Virus record (IMG/VR): IMGVR_UViG_3300009034_000825
Span: 1-22,901 of that record
Strand: one strand, 5' to 3'
Source of the DNA: a virus
DNA: 22,901 nucleotides
Shown: one piece after another, positions 1-22,761 of the stretch
How positions within the stretch are numbered: the stretch's first letter is position 1
Layout: each line of letters begins with the position of its first letter
Position numbers and translations under genes: made by a program
The notes under the pieces: model-generated
Database searches by the model: none
What the model was told of the DNA's origin: nothing
Seen by the model: only the letters and a program-made list of their open reading frames with translations

Positions 1-1059
1 ACCGCACTCATCACAAACTTCGAATCAAACCAACAATACATAAACATCTTCGGCCACCTGAAACCGCGCCAACCCAAAAAGTGGACAAGCCGAGAAATCA
101 TAGTAGCCCGCGACGAAATCAGCAAAAACCCCACAATAAAAGCCACAGGACTAATGGGCCCCATAACTGGCGGAAGATCCGACTTAATAGTCTGCGACGA
201 CATCATAGATGAGGAAAACGTCCGGACACGACTGCAAGTTGAAAAAGTTTCAACATGGTTCAACAAAGTCCTCTATCCAACGCTTTATCCTTGGGGAGGC
301 ATCATAGTCATCGGCACCAGATGGAGCTACGCTGACGTTTACGCGGGACTACTTGAAAAATGGCCACACGACATGAAGCAAGCTGTCCAAGAAGACGGTT
401 CTGCACTGTGGCCCGAATACTGGAGTTTAGCTAAACTCGAAGAACGACGCAATGAGATTGGCACCATATTCTTCAACTGCCAATACCAGAACGACCCGAC
501 TGGAATGGAAGGCGCACTGCTGAAAAGTGAGTGGCTACATTCATATGATGATGAACCCTCAAAAGACGTAATCAAATTTGCTGGCGTTGACCCCGCTTTA
601 GGCGAAGGAGACTTACAAGCAATAGCAACAGTCGGCTATGACCGCATCAACAAACAAGCATATCTTATGGAAGTGTGGAGTGACAAAGCCGATTTTCCCT
701 TGTTCCTACGGAAACTTCGCCAACTACATTTAACACATAACTACGCAAAAATCTATCTTGAATCAAACGCCTTCCAAAAAGTGTTAACATTCATTCCCGA
801 ACTCAGACAAGGCTTACCTATATCTCCAACAGTCACAGACACTAACAAAGAACGCAGATTCATCGCAATGAGTAGCCACTTTGAAGCCAAACGAGTTTTA
901 GTTAACCCGTTTGTGAATAGCCGGAAACATGAGTTTTGGAGTGAATGGGTGCAGTTTCCAAGAGCGCAATACGACGACGCGTTGGACAGCACAGAAATTG
1001 TGTTGCGGAACGTGATTAAAGTCGGTAAAGGTTACGGAGTCAGTTTCATAGAGTGGTGA
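1..1059 (+). CDS. terL: Terminase large subunit, C-terminal part (5' end outside window)
   Basis: This is the packaging motor ATPase/nuclease that pumps viral DNA into the prohead through the portal. The frame is open from base 1, so the start and the Walker A motif lie upstream. A Walker B-like stretch, LIVCDDIID, is at about nt 184-210. It is followed by a coupling motif, IIVIGTRW, at about nt 304-327. The RNase H-like nuclease domain shows its acidic residues in order: FAGVDPALG (Asp near nt 589), IYLES (Glu near nt 760) and a DDALDS segment near nt 973-990. This order of motifs is typical of phage and archaeal-virus TerL. The TGA stop lies 3 nt before the next gene, whose SD (GGTGA) overlaps it. 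The portal follows after three small genes, the usual order. I am confident of the family; how much is missing upstream is unknown. Confidence 0.93.
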   Translation, partial: TALITNFESNQQYINIFGHLKPRQPKKWTSREIIVARDEISKNPTIKATGLMGPITGGRSDLIVCDDIIDEENVRTRLQVEKVSTWFNKVLYPTLYPWGGIIVIGTRWSYADVYAGLLEKWPHDMKQAVQEDGSALWPEYWSLAKLEERRNEIGTIFFNCQYQNDPTGMEGALLKSEWLHSYDDEPSKDVIKFAGVDPALGEGDLQAIATVGYDRINKQAYLMEVWSDKADFPLFLRKLRQLHLTHNYAKIYLESNAFQKVLTFIPELRQGLPISPTVTDTNKERRFIAMSSHFEAKRVLVNPFVNSRKHEFWSEWVQFPRAQYDDALDSTEIVLRNVIKVGKGYGVSFIEW

Positions 1060-1062
1060 AAA

Positions 1063-1440
1063 ATGGGAAAACGGGAAATTGTAGAAGACTTTGAACGTGA
1101 ACTGAAACGCAGAATCCGTTCATGCTTGCCCGGTGAAGAACCGCAAGAAACTGGCTGGATTTCTTCAGAGGCCGAGCAGAAAGTGGCGGCAGACGTTGAA
1201 CGCAAATTAAAACGGGGAGTCATACATGCGGAAGATACGCAGCAAACAGTTGGTTCTCCTTGGATTTCAAAAGAAACTGAACAGAAAATTGCGGTAGATT
1301 TTGAGCGAGAATTGCGCGTTCGCGCTGACGTTGCCACGGAAAAGTCGCCTAAACCGTTACTTCCGCGAATTCAAGAAGCAGTGGAGCAAATTAAAGATTA
1401 TGTAGTTTTTCAGTTGCGCAAGGATTTTGGTGACAAATGA
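1063..1440 (+). CDS. Hypothetical protein with 35-residue tandem repeats
   Basis: I do not recognise this 125-residue, highly charged protein. Its sequence is built on a repeat with a period of exactly 35 residues. The helical core D-F/V-E-R-E/K-L-K/R occurs at residues 9-15, 44-50 and 79-85, and a WIS.E.EQK(V/I)A.D lead-in occurs at residues 32-44 and 67-79. The C-terminal quarter (about residues 95-125) is different and contains IQEAVEQIKDYVVFQLRKDF, probably another amphipathic helix. The whole is likely alpha-helical. Translation starts at an ATG 3 nt after the terminase stop with GGTGA just upstream, and its TGA overlaps the next gene's ATG (ATGA). The place between terL and portal is often used by small packaging or accessory genes, but no role can be assigned. 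Confidence 0.8.
   Translation: MGKREIVEDFERELKRRIRSCLPGEEPQETGWISSEAEQKVAADVERKLKRGVIHAEDTQQTVGSPWISKETEQKIAVDFERELRVRADVATEKSPKPLLPRIQEAVEQIKDYVVFQLRKDFGDK
1156..1330 (+). repeat. 105-bp-period tandem repeat within the gene at 1063
   Basis: Two tandem copies (from nt 1156 and nt 1261) begin with tggatttc and encode WIS-x-E-x-EQK-(V/I)-A-x-D-(V/F)-ER-(K/E)-L. An earlier partial copy lies at about nt 1075-1110. The period is 105 bp (35 codons). The copies have diverged at third positions more than in the protein, so the repeat seems to be kept by selection and is not a recent slippage event. Confidence 0.75.
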
Positions 1441-1586
1441 CTTGGTATCAATGTAGCGCATGCAGCAAATCCGTTGGTTGCCGATTCCGCGCTAACCATA
1501 AGAAGATCGCTAAAATCAAGCGGATGCGTGACTGCCCCGAATACGACTATAAACCGCACACTCGGTTGCGGGCAACATTCAAGTGA
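1437..1586 (+). CDS. Small cysteine-rich (zinc-finger-like) protein, 49 aa
   Basis: This small gene starts with an ATG that overlaps the previous stop as ATGA. The protein begins MTWYQCSACSKSVGC, giving a CxxC pair and a third Cys close by, followed by a basic middle (KKIAKIKRMRD) and a single late Cys (CPEY). This arrangement could bind one zinc ion, and the basic part would suit nucleic-acid contact, but neither is shown. Tight coupling to its neighbours on the same strand supports a real gene. Function unknown. Confidence 0.6.
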   Translation: MTWYQCSACSKSVGCRFRANHKKIAKIKRMRDCPEYDYKPHTRLRATFK

Positions 1587-1591
1587 AAACA

Positions 1592-1735
1592 ATGGGACGA
1601 ACTGTTCATATATGCCCTAACTGTGGTGGACGCGGAGGTTGGACATTTTGTGGATCAAGAGAGCTAATTCATCTAGATTGTGGATATAGAATTACTTTTG
1701 AAGAGTGGATGAAAGCGAAAAGGGTGAAAAAATGA
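1592..1735 (+). CDS. Small zinc-ribbon protein, 47 aa
   Basis: The ATG is 5 nt after the previous stop. The protein has CPNCGGRGGWTFCG (residues 8-21) and LDCG (residues 29-31), a compact four-cysteine zinc-ribbon pattern, followed by a short helical tail FEEWMKAKRVKK. The last codons of this gene also carry the SD of the portal gene (AGGGTGA), and its TGA overlaps the portal ATG (ATGA), so the two are translationally coupled. Its place directly before a portal that itself carries Cys4 modules is suggestive, but the function is unknown. Confidence 0.65.
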   Translation: MGRTVHICPNCGGRGGWTFCGSRELIHLDCGYRITFEEWMKAKRVKK

Positions 1736-3396
1736 CTTTCCGTAGTCGCTTAACAAACGTGGTGAAGCGTGTTCAGCTAGGTGTAAGCGCAGCCATAGGT
1801 GGACAAAGCTTCGTTCAAAAACAGTTAACCAAAGCCTTGTATCGAATGGGTTATGGCAGCAAGCGTGCGCCAGCCTATGCAGGCAGAACCATACCGCCTG
1901 GTAAAATTGTTGAGCCACAATGGGACTACAAAATCTTATATCGAGAAGCGCAGACACACCACATTCTGCGTCGGATACATGAAGCAATCATAAGAGAATG
2001 CACCCGAGTCGGCGGAACAGTTGAACCCCGCTTCCTGTCTAAATGTAAGAAATGTGGCACAGAATACATGAAAGAACTTGACAGATGCGAAAGCGAGGAA
2101 TGTGGCGGAGTAACCGTTAAGCCTGATCCTACACAGCGAAGCATGCTACAGGACTTCATTAAGAACCCTAACCGAGACAACGAGTGGCTTCAACTTTTAA
2201 CTTCGTTGCTGCGGTTTGAGTTGGCTGTTGACGACTGGTATCTACTGGTAGAACAACAGAAAGCCACATTGGATTTGAAGCCGTTTGGAACCGCCGAAAA
2301 ACTTGACACAAACGTGTTAACCGTTAGAGTCTTAGACAGCCGTTACATGCGTGTCTGCGCAGACGACTACGGCAACTTGGGCAACGAAGAGTTTTTCTGT
2401 CCTGGCTGCTACGACGGAATCAAAGGCGACAAAAGTTTCGACCTAAACTACTACAAAACACATGGCGGCAAATGTCCCGACTGCGCTGGCGAGTTGATAG
2501 AAACGGTTTACATCTGGCGAGAAGCAGAAAGTTCTACGATTAAAGGACGGTTTGGCAGAGACGAAGTTATCCACAGCAACATGTGCAGTCAGCTACCGCA
2601 TATTTATGGAGTGCCTAAAACTATCGCTGCTTTGCGTCCCTTACATATTCTGCGTCACATGGCGAGATTCAACTTAGAAAACTATGGACGCGGCAAAGTA
2701 GACAAGCTAATCATCATATCTGGAATGAGCCAAGACGACGTAAACCAGATGCGAAAAGACATAACCCAACAAGCCGAGGAACATGTTGAACGCAGCCTAG
2801 TCACTGGTCAACGAGGCGCACCTAAACTTCATGTTCCTTGGATAGGTTTGGAACATGAGAAAGCCAGCGTAACCGTAGTTGATGCTATGCCCGACTCCGA
2901 GAAGATGCAGAGCATCGAATGGTACAAACAACACGCAGAAGACGTATGCTCCATCTGGGGAGTGACACCGAAGTTTGAAGGCATAGCTGAAGCAGGCAAA
3001 CAGGGCTTACGCATGGTTATAGACGTAGACAACAATGTGACGCGGAGCTATCAGAAAAGTTTGACAGACGTTTTCGATGAGGAACTGTGGCCTAAATTTT
3101 TGGGTGTGACTGATTGGGTTTGGCGTTTCGGCGAGATAGAGGAACGCGACGTGAAGCTTGATGCTGAAACCAAAGAAATCAATGTGCGCACGGCGATTGC
3201 GGCGGCTAACGCTAAAATGAATGTGGAATTGGAGGAAACGGGCAACTTGAAAGTCAGCGGCAAACCGCAACCGCGTGAACCTTTTGAAATGCCTTTTCAA
3301 GAGAAACCGAGTGGGGAACGTAGTGAAGAGGAGAAGGTTTGGGCAAAGCCTAAAAGCAAAAAGAAACGGAAAGGTTTCCTAGTTTACGAGGTGTAA
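1732..3396 (+). CDS. Portal protein with two embedded Cys4 zinc-ribbon modules
   Basis: The portal is the ring at one capsid vertex through which DNA enters and leaves; it docks the terminase and later the neck. I chose the ATG at 1732 over one 27 nt upstream because AGGGTGA lies just before it and it overlaps the previous stop (ATGA). That gives 554 residues, in the normal size range. Portal-like features are the N-terminal HHILRRIHEAIIRECTRVGG segment, a long helical region around DVNQMRKDITQQAEEH, and CSIWGVTPKFEG...KQGLRMVIDVDNN...YQKSLTDVFDEELWP near residues 405-455, resembling the portal stem and crown region. Two four-cysteine modules are unusual: C105/C108/C119/C124, and C223/C226/C248/C251. 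The C-terminus is Lys-rich. Confidence 0.85.
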   Translation: MTFRSRLTNVVKRVQLGVSAAIGGQSFVQKQLTKALYRMGYGSKRAPAYAGRTIPPGKIVEPQWDYKILYREAQTHHILRRIHEAIIRECTRVGGTVEPRFLSKCKKCGTEYMKELDRCESEECGGVTVKPDPTQRSMLQDFIKNPNRDNEWLQLLTSLLRFELAVDDWYLLVEQQKATLDLKPFGTAEKLDTNVLTVRVLDSRYMRVCADDYGNLGNEEFFCPGCYDGIKGDKSFDLNYYKTHGGKCPDCAGELIETVYIWREAESSTIKGRFGRDEVIHSNMCSQLPHIYGVPKTIAALRPLHILRHMARFNLENYGRGKVDKLIIISGMSQDDVNQMRKDITQQAEEHVERSLVTGQRGAPKLHVPWIGLEHEKASVTVVDAMPDSEKMQSIEWYKQHAEDVCSIWGVTPKFEGIAEAGKQGLRMVIDVDNNVTRSYQKSLTDVFDEELWPKFLGVTDWVWRFGEIEERDVKLDAETKEINVRTAIAAANAKMNVELEETGNLKVSGKPQPREPFEMPFQEKPSGERSEEEKVWAKPKSKKKRKGFLVYEV

Positions 3397-3695: not shown

Positions 3696-4028
3696 GTGTA
3701 TTTGCAGCGATTGGCTCCTTTGATTCGCGCAGTAGAAGCTGTGCAAGCAGTTCAGAAAGCCAAAAAACGCAAACCACCAACACGCCCTGGCGTAACATTC
3801 TTCAGCGAAGCTGACACTTGGCTGTTCAACGCACGTGCAGACACCAAAGTTTGTCGCTTATGTCGTCTCTACGAACAATGGGGCGAAATCCGCGGAGATC
3901 AACTGCGCACAGAATTTCCTTATCTCAAAATAATTGACGAGAACATGATTGCTGGATCAGAACCAGACGGTAGAGGTTTGGTTCATCCGAATTGTAGGTG
4001 TTTTCTCACAAGGTTGTTAGCCACATGA
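3696..4028 (+). CDS. MuF-like minor head protein fragment (C-terminal cysteine/HPNCRC domain)
   Basis: A 110-residue protein starting at GTG. It has a basic N-terminal part (KAKKRKPPTRPG) and then RADTKVCRLC (C53, C56), ending with GLVHPNCRCFLTRL (H97, C100, C102). The CxxC...HPNCRC pattern is the signature of the C-terminal part of SPP1 gp7/Mu gpF-type minor head proteins, which usually follow the portal, as here. The family is normally 250 residues or more, so this is a short form lacking the usual N-terminal region. The frame stays open for about 12 codons upstream (to nt 3660) but has no better start. It overlaps the next gene by ATGA. A role in head morphogenesis or DNA ejection is inferred from family and place. 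Confidence 0.65.
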   Translation: MYLQRLAPLIRAVEAVQAVQKAKKRKPPTRPGVTFFSEADTWLFNARADTKVCRLCRLYEQWGEIRGDQLRTEFPYLKIIDENMIAGSEPDGRGLVHPNCRCFLTRLLAT

Positions 4029-5986: not shown

Positions 5987-6964
5987 GTGATTGATTTCCC
6001 ATTTGGAAAATGGCCGAACTTTCAAGCATGCAAAACCGACATGATGGGTCCACCCAACAATTACGACGAAGAAACAGCCGAAAAAACATGTGGCAAACTG
6101 CAAACCCGACTAGAAGGAAAAGAAGCGTTTAAACTGTTGAAAAGCGTGGGAAACCGCCGAGTCATAGCGCAATACATCCACGTTGAAAACGTTGATTTAA
6201 TGAAAGACATAATTCCCATGCGTCGAATGAAAGAAGCGTTAGAAGATTTGAAAAGTTGGGACCCACGGTACCTTAATGTGAATTGGCGACATACAAGTTG
6301 GCAAATTGGACATCCACTGTGGAGCTTCACTGACGCAAACGGAACGATCCACAAAACTGAAATTGACGAGTACGGGTTTTGGGGGATCACTGAAATCCGC
6401 AACGACGGCTACAAAATGGCGGATAAAGTGTGGAATCAGATTCTCGTTGGCGAACCGATTGGAGCAAGCGTAGCCATAGACTTCACAGAAGACGCTATTA
6501 AGTTAACTAAAGACGAAGTTGTTAAGCGAGGTTTACCCAAGCAATGGGAAGGCGCAAACTACTATGACATCCCCTTAAGCTTCATTGAACCTTGGAGCGA
6601 AACACCTACACCAGCAAACCAATATGTCACTGCGGCTCAGGTATTGGCGAAAGAAATCTGTGAGCCATGCGTCAAAGCACGGGCTAAATGGTATCTGGAA
6701 AAGGGAATATGCAACAATATAACGGAAGCCTTGGCTAGAGCAAGACACTTCTTCATAAGATACAACGAGAAAGAATCTAAACTGAAAGCTATGACTTGGG
6801 AACAATGCATCGAAGAGGCACAGAACAATCCTAACGTCGACGATCCTGAAGCGTTGTGCGGTTGGCTGAAGGCACATGGACCGAACGCGCCCAAAAAGGA
6901 GTACCAACTTTTCAGTCTCGAAGAAAAAGAAGAAATGTTAAGCCTAGTCAAATCGTTCAAATAG
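5987..6964 (+). CDS. Prohead protease, XkdF-like serine protease
   Basis: This probably processes the scaffold and head proteins during capsid maturation. The central domain has VNWRHTSWQIG (H102) and VGEPIGASVAIDF (S161), matching the His...Ser pattern of herpesvirus-type/XkdF-like prohead proteases. At the N-terminus is a KWPNFQAC (C15)...YDEETAEKTCG (C35, G36) motif often found in front of such proteases; a second version, TWEQC (C274)...DDPEALCG (C291, G292), lies near the C-terminus. A further cysteine set (C225, C228, C242) precedes it. Its position before scaffold-like and capsid genes agrees. The start is unclear: AGGAG (5981-5985) is only 1 nt from the GTG at 5987 and 4 nt from the in-frame ATT at 5990. 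The reading frame itself is certain because the N-terminal motif is conserved. Confidence 0.75.
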   Translation: MIDFPFGKWPNFQACKTDMMGPPNNYDEETAEKTCGKLQTRLEGKEAFKLLKSVGNRRVIAQYIHVENVDLMKDIIPMRRMKEALEDLKSWDPRYLNVNWRHTSWQIGHPLWSFTDANGTIHKTEIDEYGFWGITEIRNDGYKMADKVWNQILVGEPIGASVAIDFTEDAIKLTKDEVVKRGLPKQWEGANYYDIPLSFIEPWSETPTPANQYVTAAQVLAKEICEPCVKARAKWYLEKGICNNITEALARARHFFIRYNEKESKLKAMTWEQCIEEAQNNPNVDDPEALCGWLKAHGPNAPKKEYQLFSLEEKEEMLSLVKSFK

Positions 6965-7161: not shown

Positions 7162-7725
7162 ATGAAAAAATTTAGACAGGACGAGGCAGCACCAGAAGAA
7201 GCTTCAGGTCCAGGAACAGGCGAAGAAACACATGAATGTGAAGAAGGCAAAGTCTGGGATCCTGAAACCGAACAGTGCGTAGTTCCTGAAGAGTCAGAGC
7301 CAGACATAGACACTGGCGAAGCTCCACAACTCGAAGGCGAAAGCGCAACCACCGTGAAAGGTCAACCTAAAAACCTCATGGACGCCATAATCCGCACAAT
7401 CCGCCAAATGAACGAAGAAATGTACAAGAAACTGCGCGCAGAAACCCAGCGAGACATAGAACGAATCCGAAAGGAAATCGCAGGTGAAGCAGAAACGGCT
7501 TTGCGGAAGAGCGTAGGGTTAGAAGTTGACCCAGCATTACGTCTCAGCGACTTCAAGAGGATGATGCGCGAGTACCAGTTAGACGCTGCAACCAAGAGCC
7601 ATAGATCACCCAAGAGTCCAAGCGCAGGCGTGGGACCAGACGGCAACACTAAGAACGCAGGCAAAACAACGCAAGCCAAGAAGATAGAGTCGCTCCTCAA
7701 AGAATATAAAGGAGCGGAAAACTGA
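7162..7725 (+). CDS. Scaffold-like capsid assembly protein
   Basis: A 187-residue acidic and then basic helical protein immediately upstream of the major capsid gene, the classic scaffold position. The ATG follows GGAG by 9 nt. The N-terminal part is Glu/Pro-rich and disordered, with one small cysteine module, HECEEGKVWDPETEQC (C29 and C44). A long helix follows at about residues 72-115 (IRTIRQMNEEMYKKLRAETQ and onward), then DPALRLSDFKRMMREYQLD, and a Lys/Ser-rich C-terminus. Scaffolds usually direct procapsid growth and are cleaved or expelled; the adjacent protease fits this. Its stop shares one base with the capsid ATG (TGATG), so the two genes are coupled. The family is inferred from composition and place, not from a diagnostic motif. 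Confidence 0.6.
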   Translation: MKKFRQDEAAPEEASGPGTGEETHECEEGKVWDPETEQCVVPEESEPDIDTGEAPQLEGESATTVKGQPKNLMDAIIRTIRQMNEEMYKKLRAETQRDIERIRKEIAGEAETALRKSVGLEVDPALRLSDFKRMMREYQLDAATKSHRSPKSPSAGVGPDGNTKNAGKTTQAKKIESLLKEYKGAEN

Positions 7726-9005
7726 TGCCAACCTACCAACCGATAACTTTTGATGACTTCTTAGAACGGTTCTACAAGGCCATAGGCCCAGACGCTGAAC
7801 GCGATCCAGAGATACAGTCTTTGCTTAAAACAGATGACAGATACGACTTCGGTAGCACAGACTACTTCAACCCAGTTTACAGCGCAAAAGTCAGCTTGGA
7901 AGCGTTGACACGAAACACCGTGTTATACAAGGTTTTGCCGAAAACAAGCTACTTCGACAAAGGCGACTCGTTGCACTACATCAGCAGCGACCCAACGGTT
8001 CTCGAAGAATATTTGGGCGACGAAGGAACCATGTTCAGCAGCGACACCAACATCCCAACCATCGCCGACATCGACCACGTTTGGCCAGCAGTCTACCACG
8101 TAGGCTTCGAAGACACAAGAATCGCCAGAGAAATGAGCAAGTTCCAAGCAGAACCCAAAACAGACTTAGACTTCCTGCGCGAATACTTCATGACTTTCTA
8201 CGCAAACGGCATAGACGAGCAGCTGGCTGGAGTCCAACTCAGTAGCACAGTCCACGGCGTGGACACGCCAGCAACTTCAACGAATGCTACCATAGAGTGC
8301 ATCGACAGAATGATAAGCAACAGCACAGAATCTGGCGCAACAAACCACGTCAGCCTAGCCACAGACGGCGACATCTTCTGGCAGAAACAGAACTTAACTG
8401 GCACAGAAACAGCAGTCATCGACAGAAGCGCAGTCACATGGGCAGACGCCCAAATCAAGTTGCCAACAACTGCGGGAACAGAAGAAAGCTACAACATCTT
8501 AGACGAACTAGACGACTTGATGGCAACCGCGCTAGTCTACGCGCCGACGGCAGAACGCAACTACATAGGATTATGCAGCCCAAAAGCCTTAAATAAAATC
8601 CAAGACGAACTTGACCCCAAACAAAGATTTCTGGAATTTCCGATGGACGTGTACCAAACACTTGAAGGCGTAAGCACAAGACCAGGCGCGTTGGGAGGCA
8701 AATTCAGCGTCGCAGCCCTAGCGATTTGCGGAGTCAAAGTGCCGTTCTTCACAAGCCCATACTTGAGTGGCGTCAGCACAAGCTGGGTTTGGGAAAATAG
8801 CGTCTACACCACTGGCGGAGTAGGCAACATCTATTTGGTGAACATGGACAACATTGAAATCAGACACCTAATCCCAATCACGTACGCGGAATTCCCGAAC
8901 TACAGCGACTGGATACTGGGCAACAGACACAGCATCTTCAGTGCAATGCAGCTTTTGTGCCGAAACTTCGCTTGCCACGCAGCTCTAAAGTATATAGCAG
9001 CTTAG
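7725..9005 (+). CDS. Major capsid protein, HK97 fold
   Basis: A 426-residue protein after the protease and scaffold, expected to form the icosahedral shell. The ATG has AAAGGAG upstream within the end of the scaffold gene. An N-terminal helical part (FDDFLERFYKAIGPDAERD) is followed by STDYFNPVYSAKVSLEALTRNTVLYKVLP, resembling the N-arm and E-loop entry of HK97-type capsid proteins. Later come FYANGIDEQLAGVQ (spine-helix type), a TALVYAPTAERNYIGLCSPKAL segment, and a C-terminal beta part ending in a helix-rich tail. The length is normal for the family. Codons end mostly in C or A, like the neighbouring virion genes. There is no direct catalytic signature to check; the call rests on overall pattern, size and gene order. 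Confidence 0.8.
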   Translation: MPTYQPITFDDFLERFYKAIGPDAERDPEIQSLLKTDDRYDFGSTDYFNPVYSAKVSLEALTRNTVLYKVLPKTSYFDKGDSLHYISSDPTVLEEYLGDEGTMFSSDTNIPTIADIDHVWPAVYHVGFEDTRIAREMSKFQAEPKTDLDFLREYFMTFYANGIDEQLAGVQLSSTVHGVDTPATSTNATIECIDRMISNSTESGATNHVSLATDGDIFWQKQNLTGTETAVIDRSAVTWADAQIKLPTTAGTEESYNILDELDDLMATALVYAPTAERNYIGLCSPKALNKIQDELDPKQRFLEFPMDVYQTLEGVSTRPGALGGKFSVAALAICGVKVPFFTSPYLSGVSTSWVWENSVYTTGGVGNIYLVNMDNIEIRHLIPITYAEFPNYSDWILGNRHSIFSAMQLLCRNFACHAALKYIAA

Positions 9006-10914: not shown

Positions 10915-10926
10915 AAGGAGGTGATC
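10915..10926 (+). promoter_or_regulatory. Very strong Shine-Dalgarno site lacking a normal start codon at the right distance
   Basis: AAGGAGGTGATC is an extended match to the anti-SD end of 16S rRNA. The only near canonical codon in frame, GTG at 10921, lies inside the site itself. The in-frame codon 8 nt after GGAGG is ACG (10930-10932), the same spacing as at the decoration gene (GGAGG, 8 nt, ATG). Confidence 0.6.
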
Positions 10927-11163
10927 TCCACGTCTAAACGTGTAGAAAAAACCGAGGAAGAAGCTCCGAAACAATGCCCATTCTGCAATCCAAAGCAGAA
11001 CATGGTGCAAGTTAGACTCGGCGGAGCCGTAGCAACGCGAAAAAACGCCGTAACAGGCTTGAAATGTCCTGAATGCGGGTTTCTAGCGTTGTTTGATCAC
11101 CGAGTCACCTCGTCGATCCGCATAGCGAATCGGGAGGTAACGTCAACAGTTAGGTTCCTTTAA
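10921..11163 (+). CDS. Zinc-ribbon protein, up to 80 aa
   Basis: The product has CPFC (C19, C22) and CPECGF (C49, C52) spaced by 26 residues, a full zinc-ribbon; between them lies a basic beta segment (MVQVRLGGAVATRKNAVTG). The C-terminus (FDHRVTSSIRIANREVTSTV) is beta-like and basic. I give the GTG at 10921 as the outermost start, but it overlaps the SD. Translation may really begin at the ACG at 10930 (77 residues), which is optimally spaced. A Met at residue 28 would lie inside the zinc ribbon and is unlikely. Function unknown; nucleic-acid or protein binding is possible. Confidence 0.65.
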   Translation: MISTSKRVEKTEEEAPKQCPFCNPKQNMVQVRLGGAVATRKNAVTGLKCPECGFLALFDHRVTSSIRIANREVTSTVRFL

Positions 11164-19108: not shown

Positions 19109-19375
19109 ATGAATGGTGGCGACGCCGTTTTGCTGTCTGTTGTGGTTTCTGTCGTGTTGATTGCCACAGGAGCCATCGACTTAGACTGGCAACTTGTCAG
19201 CTACAGATACAGCGAATGGCACCGCACGATAGACTACTGGGAATACAACCCTTTTCTGAAGATAAATTGGTGGTTGGCTTACGCTTTGAATGTGTTGCGT
19301 GTGGCTGGTGGGTGTTTGCTGTTGGGTTTCATGTTAAGCGAGTTGAGGTATCGGCTGGTGAAAAAACGTGGCTGA
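19109..19375 (+). CDS. Small membrane protein, two predicted transmembrane segments
   Basis: An 88-residue protein. A first hydrophobic segment is at residues 6-23 (AVLLSVVVSVVLIATGAI). A polar Trp/Tyr-rich loop follows (DLDWQLVSYRYSEWHRTIDY), and a second membrane segment is at about residues 55-77 (WLAYALNVLRVAGGCLLLGF). The end is basic (RYRLVKKRG). It begins 1 nt after the Dit-like gene and overlaps the next by 8 nt. Small membrane proteins in tail clusters can be holins or ejection components, but nothing here decides that. Confidence 0.65.
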   Translation: MNGGDAVLLSVVVSVVLIATGAIDLDWQLVSYRYSEWHRTIDYWEYNPFLKINWWLAYALNVLRVAGGCLLLGFMLSELRYRLVKKRG

Positions 19376-19652
19376 AACTGCGGTAAGCTACGTTTTCGCT
19401 TGGCACGCGCTATCTGATGCTTGCCCAAAATGTAGGGCGTTGAACGGTAGAGAATGGCACGACCAAGACTTATTTCAAGACGTTCTATGGGACCCTATTC
19501 ATGGCAACCTGTGGGACCTAAATGTTGACCGCAGCCTAATGCATGGTGGAAGCGGAACTTGCCGTTGCCAACTTGAAGTAAGGATTCATGTAGATGTTAA
19601 CGCTGTCCCCAGCTACGTAGAGCTTGTGGAACTAACAGAGATGTTGACATAA
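19368..19652 (+). CDS. Second MuF-like cysteine module protein, 94 aa
   Basis: A GTG start overlapping the membrane-protein gene by 8 nt. The protein has AWHALSDACPKCRALNGREW (C19, C22) and HGGSGTCRC (H59, C65, C67), i.e. CxxC-xx-LNG followed by His and CRC. This is the same type of pattern as in MuF-like minor head C-terminal domains and in the gene at 3696, though here it lies in the tail cluster. In some viruses such a module occurs fused to larger tail or toxin proteins. Its TAA shares a base with the next ATG (TAATG). It may work together with the following hydrophobic protein. Confidence 0.6.
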   Translation: MAETAVSYVFAWHALSDACPKCRALNGREWHDQDLFQDVLWDPIHGNLWDLNVDRSLMHGGSGTCRCQLEVRIHVDVNAVPSYVELVELTEMLT

Positions 19653-22597: not shown

Positions 22598-22615
22598 CGC
22601 TTCTAAACCACCTCC
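22598..22615 (-). repeat. Repeated 15-bp gene-junction sequence, copy 1 (22601-22615)
   Basis: TTCTAAACCACCTCC on the plus strand, i.e. GGAGGTGGTTTAGAA read along the genes. It is identical to 22762-22776. Each copy holds the last codons (GAG GTG GTT TAG region) of one gene and the SD of the next. Confidence 0.6.
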
Positions 22616-22761
22616 ACTCTTCCATTCTTAATGACTTTCATCTTTCTCTTACCTGAACCGAGTTGTTTTTCAATTTTCAAAAGTCGCTTCGTCTTACATT
22701 CCATGCACTCATGAACTTCGTAGTATTCCTGAACTATCCAAATATGGTTACATTCAGACAT
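22603..22761 (-). CDS. Small Cys/His (zinc-finger-like) protein, 52 aa
   Basis: A minus-strand ATG at 22761 preceded by GGAGGTGG in the end of the upstream gene. The protein reads MSECNHIWIVQEYYEVHECM ECKTKR..., giving C4-x-H6 and C19-xx-C22, a likely Cys3His zinc site, followed by a basic tail (GSGKRKMKVIKNGRVEVV). It is short but has a good SD, a zinc motif and tight spacing on both sides, so I accept it. Function unknown. Confidence 0.6.
   Translation of the reverse strand: MSECNHIWIVQEYYEVHECMECKTKRLLKIEKQLGSGKRKMKVIKNGRVEVV

Follow-up and report, generated by a model that had tools for sequence, protein, structure and literature searches.

Paired zinc-ribbon-like Cys4 sites mark a portal protein lineage that is apparently specific to archaeal tailed viruses

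Introduction

Why should the portal protein of a tailed virus carry two sets of four cysteines, each spaced as in a zinc ribbon, and is this a peculiarity of one virus or the property of a lineage? The question arises from a 22,901-nucleotide stretch of viral DNA (IMG/VR record IMGVR_UViG_3300009034_000825, positions 1 to 22,901; hereafter 'the window'), in which a sequence-only reading had recognised two Cys4 modules built into a putative portal and had suggested that they might serve ring stability or the binding of terminase or small partners. Portal sequences diverge so far that kinship is mostly visible in structures only. In the proteins described here, the eight presumed zinc ligands hold constant even as identity over the remainder of the portal drops to about 20%, and with them one clade of archaeal tailed viruses, which includes haloarchaeal, methanogen-associated and other members, can be recognised simply from sequence. 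Their conservation points to a metal-dependent step when the portal vertex is assembled. Portal folds and zinc ribbons are both familiar; we have found no description of the two paired as what a portal lineage conserves best, nor did a literature search, with a coverage that leaves out most subscription journals and bioRxiv preprints, return any open-access paper on structural zinc in portals.

Results and Discussion

The portal gene and its two Cys4 sites

The frame at 1732–3393 is open throughout, with an alternative GTG start upstream at 1705 (1705–3393), and, as judged by profile matches and a predicted fold, its product is a portal (Table 1). It matches PHROG portal families with E 3e-9 (phrog_18178), and residues 262–419 match the Pfam family Phage_portal (PF04860) with 26.5 bits and E 4.5e-6, below the cut-off of 39.1. 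A search of PDB sequences, whether with the single protein or with a profile, returned no portal and only weak matches at the level of chance. AlphaFold2 was run twice, with 14 and then with 26 sequences, and the second model is a monomer of moderate overall quality (mean pLDDT 75.2, pTM 0.62). In a comparison of the predicted structures with PDB entries, portals or portal-containing necks filled all of the first 50 places, with Z scores of 14.4–20.8 over about 240–330 residues; the top match was phage 812 (Z 20.8, rmsd 5.7 over 308 aligned residues), and the HK97 portal and the archaeal HFTV1 portal scored 17.2 and 16.8 respectively. The gene lies in a head-gene module, downstream of the large terminase (TerL) and upstream of protease-like (5987–6964) and capsid-like (7725–9005) genes. 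The earlier identification of the protein as a portal is thus borne out by the PHROG matches, by the predicted fold and by the position of the gene behind TerL. An artefact of frame or assembly can be set aside: the frame is open, the portal fold spans both flanks of the inserts and the relatives share the same frame.

Table 1. Features of the portal locus, in window coordinates.
Feature	Coordinates	Strand	Details
Large terminase TerL, cut by the left end of the window	154..1059	+	phrog_38, E 3e-65
Small Cys-rich ORF between TerL and portal	1437..1586	+	49 aa, 4 Cys
Small Cys4 ORF between TerL and portal	1583..1735	+	50 aa; weak zinc-ribbon matches only
Portal protein gene	1732..3396	+	554 aa, ATG start; PHROG, Pfam, AlphaFold2 fold, downstream of TerL
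Zinc-ribbon-like site 1	2044..2103	+	C105-x2-C108-x10-C119-x4-C124; insert in N-terminal wing lobe (predicted)
Zinc-ribbon-like site 2	2398..2484	+	C223-x2-C226-x21-C248-x2-C251; insert in N-terminal wing lobe (predicted), upstream of stem helix
Predicted stem helix, end of N-terminal wing lobe	2617..2688	+	Residues 296–319; secondary structure of model, domain order of T4 gp20
Short ORF after portal, CxxC...HPNCRC	3696..4028	+	Like the end of a MuF-type head protein; head-morphogenesis phrog_4728, E 0.07, weak

All eight cysteine codons lie exactly where the two modules had been placed, in one open frame: 2044–2046, 2053–2055, 2086–2088 and 2101–2103 for site 1 (CKKC-x10-C-x4-C), and 2398–2400, 2407–2409, 2473–2475 and 2482–2484 for site 2 (CPGC-x21-CPDC). 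Each site comprises two pairs of Cys/His ligands, as in zinc ribbon and zinc knuckle domains. No Pfam zinc family scored above its cut-off in the portal, DUF7129 alone appearing below cut-off at E 0.035. Mean pLDDT is 87–91 at site 1 (10-residue blocks covering residues 101–130) and 82–93 at site 2 (blocks covering 221–260). When the protein was shuffled 20,000 times, 0.7% of the shuffled sequences contained one such Cys4 arrangement and none contained two; the conservation of the ligands is far stronger evidence than this test of composition.

Conservation of the ligands among relatives

Relatives gathered from IMG/VR, from one contig of a Thorarchaeota MAG and from INPHARED came down to 29 non-redundant portals, whose pairwise identities have a median of 28%. 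When the columns of the whole protein are ranked by relative entropy, the first seven places go to seven of the eight ligands. Among the 27 relatives that could be evaluated, C105 is present in every one, C119, C223 and C248 in 26 each, and C108, C124 and C226 in 25 each, with a histidine in place of C226 in one more; none of the other cysteines of the window portal is conserved across relatives. The remaining ligand, the fourth of site 2, is Cys in 15 and His in 12 of the 29 portals, Asp in one and, as aligned, absent from one. Its Cys/His state changes three times on the maximum-likelihood portal tree, in which the long branches of vir335, HCTV-5, vir519, L051 and L048 are placed uncertainly, and at least two of these changes are forced by well-supported branches. 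The residues between the ligands are poorly conserved, and the spacer between the two pairs of site 1 can be as short as about 10 residues or exceed 70, with the ligands retained. The proposal had been staked on conservation in homologues, and on this point the outcome is clear: they keep the ligands as their best-conserved columns.

Substituted ligands are exchanged for other zinc ligands, the exceptions being one degenerate portal (L048) and the loss of a site in two others. Of the latter, L051 keeps site 2 (CDSC...CPDH) and is without site 1, where one stray cysteine is left; the portal of vir335 (Methanomassiliicoccales), a homologue of the window portal at E 4e-5, keeps site 1 and wholly lacks site 2. 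To judge from these sequences, Cys4 sites change as whole units, vir335 lacking only the second and L051 only the first. The degenerate portal (L048:2350-4131), for which no close full-length relative was found, reads CPLD...CPVD and CEQH...CEED, with Asp at three positions and His at one; its sites may be decaying, or may bind metal in an unusual way.

Haloarchaeal portals of the Druskaviridae type were collected in a separate scan with the HCTV-5 portal, which gave 24 loci and 13 non-redundant sequences. All eight cysteines are invariant in 13 of 13, and the 620-residue HCTV-5 portal contains exactly eight cysteines, all of them site ligands.

Distribution of the lineage

The portals of the Druskaviridae (HCTV-5, HVTV-1, HCTV-1 and HCTV-16, of Haloarcula) resemble the window portal in having all eight cysteines in the same order, at about 20% identity to it, and differ in a longer site 1 spacer. 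They are annotated as 'portal' alone, with metal unmentioned, and a published study grouped them among marine archaeal virus portals, its portal tree setting them beside magroviruses and marine Thaumarchaeota viruses (PMC8651126). The window portal falls in a clade with them, with homology over the portal and both Cys4 sites. Closer in sequence is the portal of vir519 (Methanofastidiosa; mangrove sediment), which is 26% identical (E 3e-25) and has both sites, and which, unlike the window protein, carries a C-terminal MuF-like extension.

A tblastn search of 50,697 phage records with the related portal L031, at E up to 1, matched archaeal viruses only, namely vir519 (E 7e-34), Druskaviridae (HCTV-5, E 5e-13) and vir335; the same records gave vir519 as the sole match to L024. 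Marginal matches of the window protein itself (E 0.04 and above) were to the portals of Drs3 and of Rhodococcus phage Trina, both without the sites, and to a cyanophage protein, which was discarded because it is not a portal and has no CxxC. Among predicted viral structures (BFVD), the best match was the portal of an uncultured archaeal virus (E about 1e-30), followed by that of HVTV-1 (about 1e-29), the next standing at 1e-17. A genome scan with a close profile found no relative, and one with a broader profile found a single contig in a Thorarchaeota MAG, from one of 227 genomes of that phylum. This contig (L041:1-13437) has terminase, portal, protease-like and capsid-like genes in order and looks viral; its link to a host is by binning only.

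No CxxC pair occurs in 13 other portals, those of HK97, lambda, T7, P22, T4, Mu, Trina, HFTV1, Drs3, Hardycor1, phiCh1, psiM2 and HGTV-1, which agrees with the earlier remark that most well-studied portals are without zinc sites. Since all of these lack them, the sites are dispensable for being a portal as such; and since HFTV1, Drs3, Hardycor1, phiCh1, psiM2 and HGTV-1 are themselves archaeal, the trait belongs to one lineage rather than to archaeal tailed viruses in general. The HFTV1 portal (gp13), whose structure is known, shares the portal fold with the window protein and has three cysteines only; a direct profile comparison between it and the window portal family gave no match. The zinc-portal lineage has so far been found only in archaeal tailed viruses and uncultured viruses and is apparently archaea-specific, because the named relatives are archaeal and no bacterial phage is among the clear matches, most members being uncultured. 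The sequence-only reading, which took the cysteines for a theme of one virus, therefore understated the case: the Cys4 sites characterise an entire clade of portals from archaeal viruses. The sites also occur in HCTV-5 and HVTV-1, both of which are isolated viruses, so that the idea of a zinc portal is directly testable.

Position of the sites in the portal fold

In T4 gp20 the wing is formed by residues 70–254 and 378–450, with stem and clip between them (PMC4493910). The wing contacts the capsid and the clip contacts the terminase, in T4 (PMC4493910) and likewise in HK97 (PMC10359639). Contacts with terminase and with channel DNA are made through the clip, channel and tunnel loops in T4 (PMC4493910) and through the clip in HK97 (PMC10359639). 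The HK97 profile aligns with the window portal over the wing end, stem and clip, and the hhalign match reaches neither Cys4 site; it sets window residue 259, eight residues after site 2, against HK97 residue 163, before the stem. The best reading of the predicted structure is that both sites are inserted in the wing, in its N-terminal lobe, and not in the terminase-binding clip, a placement that follows from the model, from the stem helix that comes after site 2 and from the order of the domains. The sites presumably lie at the surface. The HK97 portal has no paired cysteines, and its wing hairpins would be short where the window portal family has ribbons.

Presumed role of the sites

We infer that the metal is very probably zinc and that the sites act in stiffening the wing and docking it at the vertex. 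Each site would bind one Zn2+ through Cys4 (site 2 in some relatives perhaps through Cys3His), so that the metal holds the insert together. Both wing inserts would be exposed and too short to form a hydrophobic core, which zinc would replace. Two such ribbons would stiffen the wing in each of the twelve subunits, and a stiffened wing could support assembly of the ring and its seating against the capsid, and probably the scaffold too, at the portal vertex. In sum, the sites are probably structural zinc ribbons in the N-terminal wing lobe that make the wing rigid and help to seat the ring in the capsid vertex. More tentatively, the vertex as a whole might be metal-dependent, with 24 zinc ions per ring and a collar of wing knobs that docks the ring to capsid or scaffold; it is conceivable, at a similarly speculative level, that the same docking role is performed without zinc in the bacterial portals tested and by a separate interface protein in HFTV1.

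The main rival to a structural role is that the ribbons mainly dock a specific partner, such as a capsid pentamer, the scaffold, a portal-interface protein or an adjacent MuF-type protein, rather than stabilising the wing. Small zinc ribbons are frequent interaction modules, the wings of T4 and HK97 contact the capsid, and the wide variation in the length of site 1 is what an exposed knob would be expected to show; moreover, an ORF with the MuF-like pattern CxxC...HPNCRC follows the portal in the window and at the same place in the relative L002, and MuF-like domains occur as fusions to related portals. The poorly conserved residues between the ligands speak against one conserved partner surface, however, and no partner emerged from the analysis. 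We regard partner docking as a serious possibility that falls short of being probable, and both roles could hold together.

That the ribbons instead contact DNA or terminase during packaging is, in our judgement, improbable. Zinc ribbons can bind nucleic acid and the portal is part of the packaging motor, but both sites are predicted to precede the stem helix, within the N-terminal wing lobe, and the corresponding contacts of T4 and HK97 are made elsewhere; the earlier hint at terminase binding finds no support here, the clip being the docking place of terminase.

Redox disulfides or a rubredoxin-like iron centre in place of zinc would be in keeping with the CxxC pairs, which are found in both, and with the anoxic habitats of the hosts of some relatives, vir519 among them. 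Because the eighth ligand alternates between Cys and His, however, there can be no conserved disulfide at that position and a metal site is indicated instead; His at this frequency would also be unusual for rubredoxin, spacing and flanks vary, and the same sites occur in haloarchaeal viruses. Both variants thus seem very unlikely, an iron centre being the less likely choice of metal. Chance cysteines without function, for which it can be said only that unrelated CxxC motifs exist in proteins, are ruled out by the conservation of the seven top columns, the invariance in the haloarchaeal portals and the HCTV-5 portal with no cysteine to spare.

Neighbouring genes

The two small Cys-rich ORFs upstream of the portal had suggested zinc as a wider theme of the packaging vertex. 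Both ORFs exist, but neither of the two nearest relatives shares the theme: in L002 no small Cys-rich ORF stands between the genes, TerL ending at 1127 and the portal starting 39 bases on, at 1166, and in L009 there is no ORF with three or more cysteines between TerL and portal. Conversely, the interval between TerL and portal in HFTV1 (L040, 2053–3793) holds several small zinc-finger ORFs, and the portal there has no zinc site. As they are missing from L002 and L009 yet present in HFTV1, the small Cys-rich ORFs are not tied to the portal's own sites.

The TerL end of L009 (1574–2962) is like that of the window, and the TerL of L002 (81–1127) looks different, even with a portal that is 59% identical; a terminase swap within the packaging module is possible. 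Elsewhere in the window, a second short ORF, at 19368–19652 and distant from the head genes, shows a CPKC...CRC pattern reminiscent of how a MuF protein ends, and paired CxxC-type motifs recur in two more small Cys-rich ORFs, at 10921–11163 and at 22603–22761 (minus strand), the former with a rubredoxin-like Pfam match below cut-off (E 5e-4).

Three relatives (L020:2085-4886, L021:1539-4316 and L024:4422-7358) encode portals of 926–979 aa fused to a MuF-like part and to a C-terminal portion that looks like an ADP-ribosyltransferase; in HCTV-5, a gpF-like protein and an ADP-ribosyltransferase are annotated as separate neighbouring genes. In a further relative, the portal gene (L049:3974-6847) contains an intein-like insert that starts inside the most conserved motif, where ...VIESGR is followed directly by CLIGRTTIWTTEGSKKISKLQKGDYVW...
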